In this document: one piece after another, positions 3,307-24,735 of the stretch
Position numbering within the stretch: position 1 is the stretch's first letter
How the letters are laid out: each line of letters starts with the position of its first letter
Assembly: GCF_003148765.1 (NCBI RefSeq)
Contig: NZ_QGGV01000007.1
Span: forward strand, 1-64,000
Reading direction: 5' to 3'
Length of the DNA: 64,000 bases
Origin: Silicimonas algicola
GTDB lineage: Bacteria > Pseudomonadota > Alphaproteobacteria > Rhodobacterales > Rhodobacteraceae
The notes under the pieces: generated by a model
Databases searched by the model: none
Told to the model about the DNA's origin: nothing
The model's input: the letters and a program-made list of their open reading frames with translations, nothing else
Position numbers and translations under genes: made by a program

Positions 3307-4065
3307 TCAGGGCATGTACATGCCGCCGCTGACGTGAACCGTCTGGCCGGTCATGAAGCGCGCCTCGGGCATGCAGAGCGACAGAATGACGAAAGCGGCC
3401 TCCTCGATCTCACCGTCCCGTCCGACAATTGGACGGCTGGCCATCTCCGGCGACTTGCCGGCCGTGGCCGAGCGCTTCCCGCCGATCTTGCCGGGTGCCA
3501 CGCAATTGACAGTGATGTTTCTGTCCGCGAACTCCAGAGCCAGCGACTTGGTGAGGCCGACGAGGCCGGCCTTCGCCGTGGCGACATGCGCCCGCTCCTT
3601 GGCGCCCACATGCGCCGAGACACCGCCCAGGTTCACGATCGTTCCGCCTCCGCGGCCGACCATGCTGCGTAGCGCCGCGCGACTGCACAGGAAGGCGCCA
3701 TCCAGGATGACCGCGGTGGTGCCGCGCCAATCGGCGAGAGTCATCTCGAGGAAGGGCGCCTGCGCGCGGATGGCGGCGTTGTTGACGAGGATGTCGACGC
3801 CGCCGAACGCATCGCTGGCGGCCTGGAAGATCCGCGAGACGTCTTCTTCCACGGTCACGTCGCCAAGGGCCACGACTGCCCTGGCGCCCAAGCCTCGGAC
3901 CTCTTCCGCCACCGCCTCGACCTCCTCCCGCGACTGACGGGCGTGGACCAGCACGTCGGCTCCGGCCTGCGCCAGCCCAAGGGCGACCGCGCGCCCGATC
4001 CGGCGCGAGGCGCCCGTCACAACGGCAGCTTTCCCGGCAAGCGGCCTGTCGGTCCTGTTCAGCAT
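3307..4065 (-). CDS. SDR-fold protein lacking the canonical Ser, Tyr and Asn catalytic residues
   Basis: This 252-residue protein has the classical SDR nucleotide-binding motif VVTGASRRIG (residues 15-24) and DILVNNAA, so the Rossmann fold is intact. The catalytic tetrad is mostly missing: the serine position (NLGGVS) is Gly148, the tyrosine position (HVATAK) is Val161, and the asparagine position reads Ile; only Lys165 remains. The C-terminal GQTVHVSGGMYMP resembles FabG-like SDRs. ATG 4065 is preceded by an AGGAGG at normal spacing; a start at 4092 is less well placed. It is convergent with the MmgE/PrpD gene (three bases between stops) and divergent from the GntR gene. It may use another chemistry or be non-catalytic. 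Confidence 0.88.
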   Translation of the reverse strand: MLNRTDRPLAGKAAVVTGASRRIGRAVALGLAQAGADVLVHARQSREEVEAVAEEVRGLGARAVVALGDVTVEEDVSRIFQAASDAFGGVDILVNNAAIRAQAPFLEMTLADWRGTTAVILDGAFLCSRAALRSMVGRGGGTIVNLGGVSAHVGAKERAHVATAKAGLVGLTKSLALEFADRNITVNCVAPGKIGGKRSATAGKSPEMASRPIVGRDGEIEEAAFVILSLCMPEARFMTGQTVHVSGGMYMP

Positions 4066-17602: not shown

Positions 17603-17692
17603 ATGGGCTTCGATCTCGTGCTCGGCGGCATCGTTGCCGCAGCGCTCCTTGTCTACCTGCTGGCCGTGCTCCTGCGGCCGGAACGGTTCTGA
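17603..17692 (+). CDS. kdpF: KdpF, small membrane subunit of the potassium-transporting ATPase
   Basis: The 29-residue peptide starts MGFDLVLGGIVAAALLVYLL and ends RPERF, the classic KdpF ending. It has one membrane helix. In Escherichia coli, KdpF stabilises the KdpABC complex. A TGGAGG ribosome site lies 8 bases upstream, and kdpB follows nine bases after the stop. In the usual operon KdpF precedes kdpA; here it precedes kdpB. Confidence 0.9.
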   Translation: MGFDLVLGGIVAAALLVYLLAVLLRPERF

Positions 17693-17701
17693 GGGCGTGG
17701 C

Positions 17702-19714
17702 ATGGCACAACACCAAAACACATCGATCTTTTCTGCCGAACTCATCGGGCCAGCGATCCGGGACAGCTTCAACAAGCTCGACCCGCGCCAGCTGATCCGC
17801 AACCCGGTGATGTTCACCACGGCGAGTGTCGCACTGCTTGCGACGGTTCTGCTGGTGCGTTCGATCATCTCGGGCGGCGACATTGCTTTCGAGGCGCAGA
17901 TCGTCTTCTGGCTCTGGCTGACGGTGCTGTTTGGCAATTTCGCCGAAGCACTGGCCGAGGGCCGCGGCAAGGCGCAAGCGGCCTCGCTGCGCTCCACCAA
18001 GGCCGAACTGAAGGGAAAGCGGGTCAAGGGCGATACCGTCAAGGTCGTTCCGGCCAGCGAGCTGCGCGCGGGCGACATCGTGCTCGTCGAGACCGGTGAT
18101 CAGATCCCGGCCGACGGCGAGGTTGTCGAAGGGGTGGCCTCGGTCAACGAAGCCGCGATCACCGGGGAATCCGCACCGGTCGTCCGCGAGTCGGGCGGTG
18201 ACCGTTCCGCCGTCACGGCAGGCACGCGGGTTATTTCCGACTGGATCAAGGTCAGGGTGACCGCAGAGCCAGGCGAGGGGTTCCTCGACCGGATGATCAG
18301 CCTTGTCGAGGGCGCGAGCCGCGCGAAGACCCCGAACGAGGTCGCTCTGACGGTGCTGCTGACCGGCCTGACGCTCATCTTCCTGATCGCGGTCAGCACG
18401 CTGCCCGCTTTCGCCGCGTACGCGGGCGGATCCATTTCGATCCCGATCCTCGTGGCGCTGTTCGTGGCGCTGATTCCGACGACCATTTCGGCGCTTCTGT
18501 CGGCGATCGGCATCGCGGGCATGGACCGGCTGATCCGCTTCAACGTCCTGGCCAAGTCGGGCCGCGCGGTCGAGGCGGCAGGCGACATCGACACCCTGCT
18601 TCTGGACAAGACCGGAACGATTACGCTCGGCGACCGGCAGGCGACTGATTTCCTGCCGCTGTCGGGCGTGCGCGAAGGTGAACTGATCGAGGCGGCGCGC
18701 CTGTCCTCACTGGGGGATGAGACCCCCGAAGGCCGCTCCATCGTCGAGTTGGCGGGGGCTGGTGAGACTGCACCTGCGGGTGCGGAAATGGTATCCTTTA
18801 CCGCGCAGACGCGCGTCAGCGGAATCGACATCGGGGACCGGAAGATCCGCAAGGGCGCGGTCGACGCGATCCTGAAGCTGCATGATTTCGATCAGGGTGC
18901 CGTCAGACAGATTCGCACCCTCACCGAAAAGATCGCGCGCACCGGTGGCACACCGCTGGCCGTGGCGGACGGCACCCGGCTTCTCGGGGCCATCGCGCTG
19001 AAGGACATCGTCAAGGCGGGCATCAAGGAACGCTTTGCCGAGTTGCGCCGGATGGGCATCCGGACGGTGATGATCACCGGGGACAACCCGCTGACGGCTG
19101 CAGCCATCGCGGCGGAATCCGGTGTCGACGACTTCCTCGCCGAGGCGACTCCGGAGGACAAGCTCGAGTTGATCCGCAAGGAGCAATCGGGCGGCAAGCT
19201 GGTCGCCATGTGCGGCGACGGGACGAACGACGCGCCCGCTCTGGCGCAATCCGATGTCGGCGTCGCCATGAACACCGGCACCCAGGCCGCGCGCGAGGCA
19301 GGCAACATGGTCGACCTCGACAACAACCCCACCAAACTCATCGAGATCGTGGGGATCGGCAAGCAGCTGCTGATGACACGTGGCGCACTGACCACCTTCT
19401 CGATCTCGAATGACGTCGCCAAGTATTTCGCCATCCTTCCGGCGATCTTCGTGGCGCTCTATCCGGGCCTCGACGCGCTGAACGTCATGGGGCTGTCCAG
19501 TCCGCAGAGCGCAATCCTGTCGGCGATTATCTTCAACGCCGTCATCATCCCGCTGTTGGTCCCACTGGCTCTGCGCGGGGTGACCTACTGCCCGCAGAGC
19601 GCATCGCGCCAGCTTGTCCGCAACCTCGGCATCTACGGCCTCGGCGGCCTGATCGTCCCCTTCGTCGGCATCAAGCTGATCGACTTGGTCGTATCCGGCC
19701 TCGGCCTCGCGTGA
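17702..19714 (+). CDS. kdpB: Potassium-transporting P-type ATPase, subunit B
   Basis: The 670-residue P-type ATPase hydrolyses ATP to drive potassium uptake through KdpA. It contains the actuator loop TGESAPV, the phosphorylation site DKTGT (Asp302), [20 protein letters not shown] and the hinge [20 protein letters not shown]. The C-terminal helices run through [20 protein letters not shown]. The N-terminal part is close to the truncated copy at 8912. It is second in the operon, before kdpA, whereas most described operons have kdpA first. Ten or so bases after the stop lies a 26-codon reading frame. Regulation is presumably by the KdpDE pair encoded downstream. Confidence 0.97.
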
Positions 19715-19726
19715 AGGGAGACGCAC

Positions 19727-19807
19727 ATGATCATTCTTACCTATGCACTCGGGATTGCGATCTTCGCCGCGCTGATCGGCGTCGTGACCCGGCTTTTCGA
19801 GGACTGA
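19727..19807 (+). CDS. Unnamed 26-residue single-helix membrane peptide between kdpB and kdpA
   Basis: The peptide starts MIILTYALGIAIFAALIGVV and ends TRLFED. It is one hydrophobic helix with a positive then acidic C-terminus, the same design as KdpF but without its LRPERF ending. ATG 19727 is preceded by AAGGGAG at good spacing, and the stop is four bases before kdpA. Such clean packing between two essential subunit genes argues that it is translated. It may be a second KdpF-like subunit that binds KdpA, the position KdpF itself occupies in standard operons. The function is inferred from position and topology alone. Confidence 0.75.
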   Translation: MIILTYALGIAIFAALIGVVTRLFED

Positions 19808-19811
19808 ACAG

Positions 19812-21473
19812 ATGGAACATGTCTTTATCGTCGCCCTGATCATCGGCGGAACGGCACTCCTGTCGTTACCGCTGGGGGCCTGGATGAAAATGGCCATGGA
19901 CCCCGCTCCCGGCCAGATGACGGGCTGGACCAGCCTCTTCGGGCGGATCGGCGGCGCCACCGAGGAGCAGGGCTGGAAGCGCTACCTGGTCACGATGCTG
20001 ATCTTCAACGCCATCATGTTCACAGTGACCTTCACGATCCTCGGGTTGCAGCAATACCTGCCGCTGAACCCGGACGGCATGGGACCACACGATCCGACGC
20101 TGGTGTTCAACACGGCGGCGTCCTTCACCACCAACACGAACCTGCAGCACTATTCGGGCGAGGCGTCGATGAGCTACCTCAGCCAGCTTGCAGGGCTGAT
20201 GTGGCTGCAGTTCGTCTCGGCCGCCACGGGCATCGCGGCGCTGGCCGCGCTGGCGCGCGGCATTGCCGGGCGCGCGAGCCTTGGCAACTTCATGATCGAC
20301 GTGCAGCGGGCCAGCTTTCTTGTCCTGCTGCCGCTGGCACTGATCGTCGCGATGCTGATGGTGCTTATGGGCATGCCGATGACGCTGCAGGGCTCTGCGG
20401 TGGCCACGACGCTCGAGGGGGTGACGCAGACCATCGCGCGCGGCCCCGTCGCGGCGTTCCTGACCATCAAGCAGTTGGGCACCAATGGCGGCGGCTTCTT
20501 CGGCCCCAACGCCACGCATCCGCTGGAGAACCCCAGCTTCTGGACCAACGGGTTGGCGATGATCGCTATCATGCTGATCCCGATGGCCTGCGTCTGGATG
20601 TTCGGCGGCATCCTTGGCCGGATGAAACACGCCACCGTCATCTTTGCCGTGATGGCGCTGTTCATCCTGGTCAAGATCACGGGTTCGGTGACCTTTGAAT
20701 CCGCGCCGACCCCGGCCTTTGCCGAACTGCCCGTGTCCACGGACACCGGCAACCTCGAAGGCAAGGAACTGCGCTTCGGCGCCACCGGCGGGCCGCTCTG
20801 GGCGGTGCTGACAACCTCCACCTCGAACGGGTCGGTTGGTGCGATGCACGACAGCCTCAACCCGCTGACCGGCCTGATGCCCATGGCGGGCATGTGGCTG
20901 AACGCGACCTTCGGCGGCGTCGGCGTCGGGATGATCAACATGTTCCTCTACATCATCGTCGCGGTTTTCGTCGCGGGCATGATGGTCGGGCGCACGCCGG
21001 AATACCTCGGCCACAGAATCGAGGCAAAGGAGGTACGGCTGGCCATTCTGGCGCTGTTCTCTCACGCGTTCCTGATCCTTGGGCCCACGGCACTCTTCGC
21101 CGCGACATCGCTGGGCCAGGCCACTGTTCAAGACCCGGGCGCGCACGGCTTCTCGGAGATCCTTTACGAGTTCACGTCGGCTGCGGCCAACAACGGCTCG
21201 GGCTTTGAGGGCTTGGGCGACGGAACCTGGGCCTGGAATATCGCCACCGGCGTCGTGATGCTGCTGGGCCGTTACCTGCCGATCATCTTGCCGCTCGCCA
21301 TCGTGGGCAGCCTGATGGCCAAGCGCCGAGCGGCGGAGAGTGCAGGCACCCTCGGCGTCGAGGATGCGACATTCGGCACGATGCTTGGCCTGACAGTCGT
21401 CATCTTCGGCGCACTCACCTTCCTTCCGGCGGCGGCCCTTGGCCCGCTTGCCGAACACTTCTCGCTGCCCTGA
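19812..21473 (+). CDS. kdpA: Potassium-transporting ATPase, subunit A (channel-like subunit)
   Basis: This 553-residue membrane protein forms the potassium pathway of the Kdp complex. All four filter regions are visible: FTTNTNLQ, GTNGGGFFG (from Gly223), TSTSNGSVG and AANNGSGFEGL. The four repeats are of the superfamily of potassium transporters type. Length and motifs are normal. The start ATG 19812 is four bases after the small peptide stop, and kdpC follows after 24 bases. It acts in the inner membrane with KdpB, KdpC and the small peptides. Confidence 0.97.
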   Translation: MEHVFIVALIIGGTALLSLPLGAWMKMAMDPAPGQMTGWTSLFGRIGGATEEQGWKRYLVTMLIFNAIMFTVTFTILGLQQYLPLNPDGMGPHDPTLVFNTAASFTTNTNLQHYSGEASMSYLSQLAGLMWLQFVSAATGIAALAALARGIAGRASLGNFMIDVQRASFLVLLPLALIVAMLMVLMGMPMTLQGSAVATTLEGVTQTIARGPVAAFLTIKQLGTNGGGFFGPNATHPLENPSFWTNGLAMIAIMLIPMACVWMFGGILGRMKHATVIFAVMALFILVKITGSVTFESAPTPAFAELPVSTDTGNLEGKELRFGATGGPLWAVLTTSTSNGSVGAMHDSLNPLTGLMPMAGMWLNATFGGVGVGMINMFLYIIVAVFVAGMMVGRTPEYLGHRIEAKEVRLAILALFSHAFLILGPTALFAATSLGQATVQDPGAHGFSEILYEFTSAAANNGSGFEGLGDGTWAWNIATGVVMLLGRYLPIILPLAIVGSLMAKRRAAESAGTLGVEDATFGTMLGLTVVIFGALTFLPAAALGPLAEHFSLP

Positions 21474-21497
21474 CCGGCGCTGAAAGGAGACAGACCC

Positions 21498-22070
21498 ATG
21501 AATGACATCATCTCGGGACTTCGCGTCACGGCCGCCACCATGGCGGTCTGCGTCGCAGGCTACACCACGGTCATCCTAGGCTTCGCGCAGGCGGTGACAC
21601 CGGCCACCGCCAACGGGTCCTTGATCACGCAGGGCGATGGCAGCGTGATCGGCAGCCGCCTGATCGCGCAGGGTTTTACTTCGCCGGAATACGTCTGGCC
21701 GCGCCCATCGGCGGTTGACTATGACGCGGCGGGCGCGGGCGGGTCGAACCTGTCGCCCGCCAATCCCGAACTGGCGGAACGCGCGCTGGCGCTGATCGCG
21801 GCCCATGGTCGGGACGGCACCCCGATCCCTGCCGATCTGGTGACCGCCTCGGGCGCGGGGCTTGACCCCCACATCTCGCTTGAGGGTGCGCTGTTTCAGG
21901 TGGTCCGCGTGGCCGAGGCGCGCGGGGTCGAGCCTGCAGCCGTCCGGGCGATCATCGACCGGCTGGCCGAGCGGCCCGGGGGGGTCTTCACCCCGGCGCC
22001 CATCGTCAACGTACTGGAACTGAACCTCGAACTCGATGCGGAATTGGCAAGTCCCGCGAGCACAGAATAA
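21498..22070 (+). CDS. kdpC: Potassium-transporting ATPase, subunit C
   Basis: The 190-residue protein has an N-terminal membrane anchor (TAATMAVCVAGYTTVILGFA) followed by a periplasmic domain. It carries the KdpC motifs IGSRLIAQGF, YVWPRPSA, GGSNLSPANPEL and SGAGLDPHIS. It is an accessory subunit that stabilises nucleotide binding and complex assembly. AAAGGAG precedes ATG 21498. kdpD begins 10 bases after its stop. Confidence 0.96.
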   Translation: MNDIISGLRVTAATMAVCVAGYTTVILGFAQAVTPATANGSLITQGDGSVIGSRLIAQGFTSPEYVWPRPSAVDYDAAGAGGSNLSPANPELAERALALIAAHGRDGTPIPADLVTASGAGLDPHISLEGALFQVVRVAEARGVEPAAVRAIIDRLAERPGGVFTPAPIVNVLELNLELDAELASPASTE

Positions 22071-22080
22071 AACTGTGCCC

Positions 22081-24735
22081 ATGACAGATGACGCCCGCCC
22101 CTCGCCCGATGCCCTGCTGCGCGAAGCTGAGCGCGAGGGGCGCGGCACCCTAAAGATCTTTCTCGGCGCCGCCCCCGGTGTCGGGAAAACTTTCGAGATG
22201 CTTCTCGAAGGTGCGGAAAAGCTTGAGGCTGGCGCCGATGTGGTCATCGGCATCGTCGAGACCCACGGCCGGAAGGAAACCGAGGCGCTGGTCTCGCCCC
22301 TGCCGGTGATCCCCCGCAAATCCATCGACTACAAGGGCCAGACCCTGACCGAGATGGACCTCGACGCGGTCCTGGAGCGCCATCCGGAGATTGTCCTGGT
22401 CGACGAACTGGCGCACACCAACGCGCCCGGCAGCAGGCACCCCAAGCGCTGGCAGGATATCGAGGAACTGCTGGCTGCGGGCATCGACGTGATGACCACG
22501 GTCAACATCCAGCACGTCGAAAGCCTGAACGACGTCGTGGGCAGCTTCACGCATGTTCGGGTGCGGGAAACCGTGCCCGACAAGGTGTTCGAGAATGCCG
22601 AGATCGAACTGATCGACCTGCCGCCCGAAGACCTTATCAAGCGTCTGGATGCCGGAAAGATTTATGTGCCCGAACAAGCCCGCCACGCGCTTGAACACTT
22701 CTTTTCCAAGGGCAACCTGCTGGCGCTGCGCGAACTCGCCCTGCGCCATGCCGCGCAATACGTCGATGCGCGCATTCAGGAACACAAGAGCGTCACCGGC
22801 AAGGAGAACGGCTACGCCGCTGGGCAGCGCATCCTTGTCGCGATCTCGGAAGCGGCCGGTGGAGAGCAGGTCGTGAGGGCCGCCAAAAGGCTCGCCGATG
22901 CCCTGAAGGCGCCGCTCATCGCGCTTTACGTGGAGACACCATCTGCGGCACGGTTCAGCGACGCCGAGAAGACCCAGCTTGCCCGCAACCTGTCACTCGC
23001 GGCTTCTCTTGGCGCCAGCTTGCAATCCGTGCCGGCCACCTCGGTTCAGGAGGCCATGCTGGCCCAGTGCAAGGAACTGCGTGCCACGCAGCTGGTCCTC
23101 GGCAGATCGCGTGGCAAGGGCAGCTGGTTCGGGCGGCGCGATGGAATCGTTCAGGACATCCTCGACGGGACGACCGGCATCGCCATCCATGTCATCCCGT
23201 TTCAGGACACACCGCGCGGGCGAGACTGGCGGCGGCTGTGGCCCCGCGGCAGTTGGACCGGGGACGTGATGGCAATCGGGTCGGTGGGAGCATTGACGCT
23301 TGCCGCATTTCTTGCGCAGGGCTGGATCAGTCGCGGCCCGATCGATCTTCTCTACCTCCTGCCCGTCATCTTCAGCGCAAGCTTCTACGGCTTCCGTGCC
23401 GGATTGATCGCTGCCATCGCAGCAGGAATCGCCTACAACTTCTTCTTCCTTCCCCCATTCTACACATTCATCATTTACGGCCCGGTGAACATCATCACAG
23501 CGGCGCTGCTCGTGGTGGTTGCGATTATTACCGGACAGCTGGCGGCGCGCGCACGGGCTGCCGCCGCCCTTGCGATGCGCAGCGCGCGCGAGAACGCCGG
23601 TCTCGCCCGTTTCGCCACGCGCCTCGGCGCCGCAAGCACCACGGAAGAGACGGCACAGCTCATAAGAGATGAGCTGCGGTCGTTGTTGGCGGTGCAGACC
23701 ATCGTGCTGCACCGCTCCGGGGATAGCGTCGAGATCAGCGCGTTCGGGCAGACAAAGCCGGACCTCACCCCCATCGATCAAGCGGCGGCCGAGTGGGTGA
23801 TGGAGCATGGAGAGGACGCCGGTTTGGGAACCAACACCCTCACGGCTAGCGAATGGCAGTTCCGTCCCCTCAAGACGTCCCTCGGAACGCTTGCGGTCCT
23901 GGGCTTCCGTGGCCCGCCCGGCCGCGACCCCATTCCAACCGAGCGCGCGGCCCTCGCCGAAAGCCTGATCGACCAGGCCGCACTGGCGCACGAGCGCCTG
24001 AAGCTGGAAGCCGACATGCGGGACATGGAGGTGGTCCGCCAGCGCGATAGTTTGCGCGCGGCGCTGCTCGCGTCGCTCAGCCACGACCTGCGCACACCCC
24101 TGACCGCCGTGACCGCGGCGGCCGAGGCGCTCTCGGCGACAGGTGACGAGGCCGAGCTGGTCGATACGGTGCGCAGCGAGGCCCGCAGGCTGAACCGGTT
24201 CCTGTCCGATCTGCTGGACCTGACGCGGATCGAGGAAGGCGCCGTCACGCCCGATCTTGTGCCTACCGATCTGACCGACGTGATCGCCTCGGCGGTCGGC
24301 GATTCGGTCAAGACGTTGGCGGGACGAAAGGTGCAGACATCGATCGACCCGAACCTGCCTCTCGTGCGGGCTGACGCGGTTCTGTTGAACCACGCGCTTC
24401 TGAACCTCGTCGACAATGCGGCCAAGTATTCGCCGCAGGAGGAACCGATCGAGATTATCGCGCGGATGGGGCGGCGCGGCCCGGTGATCGACGTGCTCGA
24501 TGGTGGCACCGGCATTCCCCAAGGCAGCGAACAGCGCATTTTCGACCGCTTCGCCCGCGGCGAGACGTCGGATCGTACCGGCGGATCGGGGCTCGGCCTT
24601 GCCATCGTCAAGGGCTTCGTGGAGGCGATGGGCTTCACGGTCGAGGCTGCGCGGCGTCCGGGCGGCGGATCGCGCTTCACGATCCGTATCCCGCATGATG
24701 CAACGGTGCATGTGTCGATGGAGGACATCGCGTGA
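22081..24735 (+). CDS. kdpD: Sensor histidine kinase KdpD
   Basis: The 884-residue kinase has the full KdpD layout. The N-terminal KdpD domain has the Walker A GAAPGVGKT (residues 29-37) and VLVDELAHTNAPGS. A universal-stress-like domain, four membrane helices (DUF4118; about residues 400-490) and a GAF-like region follow. The kinase core has SHDLRTPLT with His668, NLVDNAAKYS and the ATP-binding DGGTGIP and SGLGLAIVKGF. It senses low potassium or salt stress and phosphorylates KdpE. I chose ATG 22081 (MTDDARPSPD) because it follows the kdpC stop. Its stop overlaps kdpE by four bases. Confidence 0.96.
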   Translation: MTDDARPSPDALLREAEREGRGTLKIFLGAAPGVGKTFEMLLEGAEKLEAGADVVIGIVETHGRKETEALVSPLPVIPRKSIDYKGQTLTEMDLDAVLERHPEIVLVDELAHTNAPGSRHPKRWQDIEELLAAGIDVMTTVNIQHVESLNDVVGSFTHVRVRETVPDKVFENAEIELIDLPPEDLIKRLDAGKIYVPEQARHALEHFFSKGNLLALRELALRHAAQYVDARIQEHKSVTGKENGYAAGQRILVAISEAAGGEQVVRAAKRLADALKAPLIALYVETPSAARFSDAEKTQLARNLSLAASLGASLQSVPATSVQEAMLAQCKELRATQLVLGRSRGKGSWFGRRDGIVQDILDGTTGIAIHVIPFQDTPRGRDWRRLWPRGSWTGDVMAIGSVGALTLAAFLAQGWISRGPIDLLYLLPVIFSASFYGFRAGLIAAIAAGIAYNFFFLPPFYTFIIYGPVNIITAALLVVVAIITGQLAARARAAAALAMRSARENAGLARFATRLGAASTTEETAQLIRDELRSLLAVQTIVLHRSGDSVEISAFGQTKPDLTPIDQAAAEWVMEHGEDAGLGTNTLTASEWQFRPLKTSLGTLAVLGFRGPPGRDPIPTERAALAESLIDQAALAHERLKLEADMRDMEVVRQRDSLRAALLASLSHDLRTPLTAVTAAAEALSATGDEAELVDTVRSEARRLNRFLSDLLDLTRIEEGAVTPDLVPTDLTDVIASAVGDSVKTLAGRKVQTSIDPNLPLVRADAVLLNHALLNLVDNAAKYSPQEEPIEIIARMGRRGPVIDVLDGGTGIPQGSEQRIFDRFARGETSDRTGGSGLGLAIVKGFVEAMGFTVEAARRPGGGSRFTIRIPHDATVHVSMEDIA

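Follow-up and report, generated by a model that had tools for sequence, protein, structure and literature searches.

Does the short space between kdpB and kdpA in the kdp operon of Silicimonas algicola encode a second small protein of the Kdp pump, additional to KdpF? In the window, i.e. the whole stretch of 64,000 nucleotides that was analysed, the operon is transcribed from the forward strand in the order kdpF, kdpB, X, kdpA, kdpC, kdpD, where X is the short open reading frame in question. The kdpF gene (17603..17692) predicts the known small subunit MGFDLVLGGIVAAALLVYLLAVLLRPERF, which matches PF09604 (E 3.4e-11) and scores above the cut-off for TIGR02115, and is thus the genuine KdpF that had been claimed to lie ahead of kdpB. 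The gene for the P-type ATPase subunit, kdpB (17702..19714), was assigned from the translation of its reading frame and from tblastn neighbours, and kdpA (19812..21473), which predicts the channel-like subunit, from PF03814 (E 9.7e-201). The kdpC gene (21498..22070) was recognised by its translation and by its position after kdpA, which is conserved in relatives. The sensor kinase gene kdpD (22081..24735) is taken to begin MTDDARPSP; the first ATG of its frame, at 22036, overlaps kdpC, and judged on frame and overlap the start at 22081 is the likelier.

X fills the 100 nt gap between kdpB and kdpA. It is an ORF of 26 codons from ATG to TGA (19727..19807, forward strand) that predicts a single-helix membrane peptide, MIILTYALGIAIFAALIGVVTRLFED. 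A Shine-Dalgarno sequence read from the DNA, AGGGAG (19715..19720), precedes the ATG with a 6 nt spacer, and 4 bases separate the stop codon from the kdpA ATG at 19812, so that the position, ribosome site and spacing given in the original prediction are all exact. The probable Shine-Dalgarno sequence of kdpA itself, GAGGA (19799..19803), lies within the last codons of X, which suggests translational coupling between the two genes.

As a lone ORF of 26 codons could arise by chance, conservation was used as the test. Relatives were drawn from GTDB genomes as 80 loci encoding kin of the window KdpA. The closest 13 are mostly from Rhodobacterales, with Fulvimarina and Rhodomicrobium in addition, and all 13 of these other window-type loci have a kdpB-kdpA gap of 99-103 nt with a 26-codon frame that ends 4 nt before kdpA. 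The corresponding gaps in rhizobial loci are mostly 114-153 nt, and nearly all of these loci again carry a 26-codon frame, represented by 28 distinct sequences. The pN/pS of X is 0.40 over 13 distinct window-type sequences (mean of column-shuffled alignments, 0.87) and 0.46 over the 28 rhizobial sequences (shuffled mean, 0.91), and none of 200 column-shuffled alignments gave a value as low as that of X. Variation in both alignments is greatest at third codon positions. The frame had been expected to lack conservation in relatives if it were not a gene; it is retained and under selection. X thus combines a conserved frame, a low pN/pS and a ribosome site, as expected of a protein-coding gene.

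A profile for X was seeded from these relatives and widened over kdp loci of proteobacterial genomes, plasmids and other phyla, a sample biased to Proteobacteria and to kin of the window KdpA. The profile search detected X in 128 of the 181 kdp loci with enough upstream sequence, comprising 48 of 73 loci with kdpB ahead of kdpA, 74 of 93 with the reverse order, and 6 of 15 in which the gene order was not seen. Members are found in Alpha-, Beta- and other Proteobacteria, Planctomycetota, Verrucomicrobiota, Hydrogenedentota, Rhodococcus and Deinococcus, the last being picked up after iteration. Most score 20-45 bits, whereas reverse-strand and shuffled controls peak near 12-14 bits. Length is nearly constant, 113 of the 128 predicted proteins having 26 (64), 27 (34) or 29 (15) residues, and 124 start with ATG. 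A ribosome site precedes 91% of X ORFs; among the remaining ATG ORFs of these regions the figure is 37%. X was not found by the profile in the kdp loci of E. coli or Klebsiella, in an 18-member sphingomonad clade that has the window gene order and gaps of mostly 24-48 nt, in five loci of one family with genomes of 4-7 Mb (perhaps Pseudomonas), or in the one locus each sampled from Bacillota, cyanobacteria and haloarchaea. Many Kdp operons that presumably work therefore have no X, and the pump as such does not require it. At one locus (L080, 2497-2595), a 32-residue hydrophobic ORF that overlaps kdpF occupies the position of X; it does not match the X profile and is possibly a very diverged member.

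Linkage to kdpA is strict. A scan with profile A3 of 190 genomes of Alphaproteobacteria, 34 with kdpA and 156 without, gave 13 matches at E<=1e-3, all on the same strand as kdpA and within about 350 nt upstream of it when the coordinates of the two tables were compared by eye. None was found at this threshold in the 156 genomes lacking kdpA. Apart from the window X, none of the 13 matched sequences was in the A3 query. X is therefore linked to the kdp structural genes and absent where these are absent, as a Kdp subunit should be. It keeps its place ahead of kdpA in each of four gene orders, X-F-A-B-C, F-B-X-A-C, F-X-A-C-B (two planctomycete loci, L027 and L048) and B-X-F-A-C (Deinococcus). Where the order is the usual one, kdpF follows X with an overlap of 1 or 4 nt or a gap of mostly <=16 nt, while the window order pairs kdpF with kdpB and X with kdpA. 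The range of X is thus wider than the kdpB-kdpA gaps first proposed, as it includes positions upstream of kdpF-kdpA in ordinary kdpFABC operons. A search for natural fusions joining X with KdpA, KdpB or KdpF returned none. Although X is unannotated and has merely 26 codons, the conserved frame and low pN/pS, together with the profile matches, the linkage to kdpA and the rate of ribosome sites, make a chance ORF so improbable that this reading was rejected. On these comparisons X is a conserved protein, and we strongly infer that it is translated.

The predicted proteins share a simple anatomy. No member has K or R in its first six residues, and 98% of X members, like 99% of KdpF proteins, have more K/R at the C-terminal than at the N-terminal end, a bias that predicts an N-out/C-in topology for X. 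Conserved positions are an F in the middle of the helix (94%), a G (69%) and a D/E-R/K pair near the end. Conserved residues tend to fall on one helix face in the window-side clade (permutation p 0.025) but not in the other clade (p 0.24), so that a conserved helical face is suggestive for the window side of the tree only.

The close spacing of X and its downstream neighbour raises the question of whether the peptide itself matters, since X could be a leader or coupling ORF that feeds ribosomes to kdpF or kdpA while its product does little. The constant 4 nt distance from kdpA at every window-type locus, the kdpA ribosome site within X, and the short overlaps and gaps to kdpF in the usual order would all fit such a role. 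However, coupling does not need the selection on amino acids seen in X, nor its near-constant length, conserved F, G and D/E-R/K, and charge pattern, features that are constant over distant lineages and four gene arrangements. Spacing is also looser in rhizobia, with 18-49 nt between the end of X and kdpA (216 nt in one). Selection acts on the amino acids across gene contexts, which makes a function in coupling or as a leader alone less likely, and we consider it improbable.

X might instead be a genuine kdp membrane peptide that is not part of the pump but controls the KdpD sensor or some other membrane partner. Sensor kinases are known targets of small membrane peptides, MgrB acting on PhoQ being an example, and kdpD shares an operon with X in the window. 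In Mycobacterium bovis BCG, overproduction of KdpF is reported to have effects that extend past K+ uptake (PMC3618439), which would also accommodate a target outside the pump. Through changes of gene order, however, X keeps to kdpA and not to kdpD. The neighbours of X being structural genes, the pump is favoured over KdpD, and a regulator of this kind seems a poor prospect.

The original prediction described X as resembling KdpF in topology but not in sequence, and this description proved accurate, although distant paralogy is possible. Both proteins are small (29 residues in KdpF, 26-29 in most X), consist of one hydrophobic helix with no N-terminal K/R and a positively charged C-terminus, and are encoded in the kdp operon by genes tightly coupled to a structural gene. 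KdpF differs in having a separate profile and a PERF-type C-terminus that X lacks, and X, unlike KdpF, has the conserved mid-helix F and the D/E-R/K near the C-terminus. By profile (PF09604, TIGR02115, NF011342) X does not belong to KdpF. The window X has no Pfam or NCBIfam match at E<=10, and 38 members searched gave no Pfam match, with one reaching E 0.0049 against NF011342, far below the cut-off. With the KdpF profile the mean scores are 52.9 bits for KdpF and 3.8 for X, and with the X profile 34.8 bits for X and 1.3 for KdpF. Nor is X the sole small subunit next to kdpA under another guise: KdpF is also present in all 124 X loci whose sequence reaches far enough upstream to show it, and X is therefore additional to KdpF.

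Some residual similarity between the two was detected. An hhalign comparison with KdpF gave 62% for all X and 76% for the window-side X, and the KdpF profile gives more than 5 bits for 24% of X, compared with 4% of shuffles. This weak similarity makes an old duplication possible, and together with the shared size, topology and charge pattern it would be consistent with X being a diverged paralogue of KdpF that does the same job at a second site. Against this stand the wide separation of own-profile and cross-profile scores and the absence of the PERF-type C-terminus, and for helices of 26 residues weak similarity may reflect composition. We regard such a paralogue as rather unlikely; it would in any case be an origin for X and would not deny it the role of an accessory subunit.

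The reading that we prefer, and consider probable, is that X, a single helix, serves the Kdp pump as a second small accessory subunit, additional to KdpF. For the second small Kdp peptide that had been proposed, conservation, selection, the ribosome site, linkage to kdpA and co-occurrence with KdpF all argue in favour, whereas physical membership of the complex is a step that we infer from the sequences. On the other side, X is missing from many Kdp operons, fusions to its supposed partners were not found, and a conserved helix face shows on the window side alone. X would be translated from the kdp transcript immediately ahead of kdpA, or ahead of kdpF-kdpA, and would insert into the membrane N-out/C-in. 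One face of the helix would then pack on the membrane part of the complex, the partner most probably being KdpA because of the gene order. There X may stabilise the assembly or tune the activity of the complex, a role suggested by analogy with KdpF, which stabilises the Kdp complex in vitro according to the title of Gassel et al. 1999 as cited in PMC6255902.

Short single helices that stabilise or tune a large membrane enzyme have counterparts elsewhere. CydX, AcrZ and MgtR are small membrane subunits of bacterial complexes, and sarcolipin, phospholamban and FXYD are helix peptides that bind and tune animal P-type ATPases; all of these serve as models for X only, with no relation in sequence claimed. 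Taking sarcolipin and the FXYD peptides as a guide, one can tentatively extend the accessory-subunit reading further. Much of the bacterial world might have a Kdp of five subunits, X being a regulatory micropeptide that lies next to KdpA and tunes the transport of K+ or its shut-off, and E. coli would have lost it. We hold this to be possible but doubtful. To our knowledge, E. coli is the sole source of solved Kdp structures, and as its pump has no X these structures cannot show it. A profile search of the PDB found no X-like chain, the best match being a photosystem I peptide (E 1.6).

No description of a second Kdp peptide was found in the literature searched, the coverage of which excluded most subscription journals and bioRxiv, and no family model (Pfam, NCBIfam) or PDB entry matches X. 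Family searches with single peptides and with the 38 members returned only weak, unrelated matches and were discarded. The window X and most others (81-84 nt) are unannotated, unlike a longer member from the Burkholderia group, the 34-residue protein from Mycetohabitans endofungorum encoded before kdpF (L144, 1278-1382). NCBI names it 'potassium ABC transporter ATPase' [GenPept accession number WP_212667346.1]; it matches the X profile with 26.2 bits (3.3e-7), and the name is a misnomer. A longer member in Azospirillum lipoferum is annotated 'hypothetical protein'. X is absent from the plasmid gene table, itself incomplete, for the Haematobacter, Paracoccus, Azospirillum argentinense, Thalassospira, Roseomonas and Rhizobium records, and is not annotated in almost all annotated rhizobial matches. 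Common gene finders usually apply a 90 nt minimum. X has plausibly gone unnamed because its 81-84 nt fall below this limit, which KdpF (29 residues, 90 nt) just reaches. In Caulobacter, an unannotated kdpF is reported, preceded by a 'UTR' of roughly 100 nt (PMC8552747), a stretch in which X may lie.

For decades Kdp has served as a model pump, studied almost always in E. coli. X is a conserved and unnamed companion of Kdp in most of the kdp operons sampled, with none in E. coli or Klebsiella, so that a pump studied in depth probably contains another small component not previously described. Structural work on Kdp is thereby given a missing component to look for.

The age of X was considered using a KdpA tree (FastTree, 176 rows), which has two deep sides, most kdpB-first operons falling on the window side. 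Members of the X family are found either side of the deepest split. Profiles built separately from the X of each side can be aligned over their full length (probability 94.9%, E 4.6e-8). Of 53 window-side X, 22 are recovered at E<1e-3 with the other-side profile, and only 3 of 75 in the reverse search. X is probably old and has been lost several times. In Pseudooceanicola spongiae (L082), X appears to have been deleted between kdpB, which ends at 3432, and kdpA, which starts at 3501; the gap keeps a stretch resembling the end of the X gene of the related L021 (GCGCGCGGCTGATC), and this appears to be a fresh, independent loss. The X in the kdpB-kdpA gap of Hoeflea marina (L067) looks decayed, and that of a Neorhizobium MAG (L050) is frameshifted by one base, either a real loss or an assembly error.

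The window operon type has a patchy distribution. It was detected in just one of 100 sampled family members (84%), while the KdpA of Rhodomicrobium sp. Az07 (L010) is 98% identical to that of the window, and the rhizobial Fulvimarina (L012) falls inside the Rhodobacterales group of window-type operons. This pattern crosses families and suggests transfer of the whole kdp operon (17603-24735 in the window) with X included.

A further ORF was observed in the kdpF-kdpB interval of more than 10 rhizobial operons, including L025 (MGWLIVKARARWQHYAQKRELPGTDLILGAILVCGVLLLVVFAALRLAGLH), L033, L036, L037, L045, L047, L065 and L068. It has ∼48-65 codons, lies about 34-52 nt before kdpB, and predicts one hydrophobic stretch after a motif like RASDIILGM or GSTIILGM. 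The product may be a third small Kdp-linked membrane protein.
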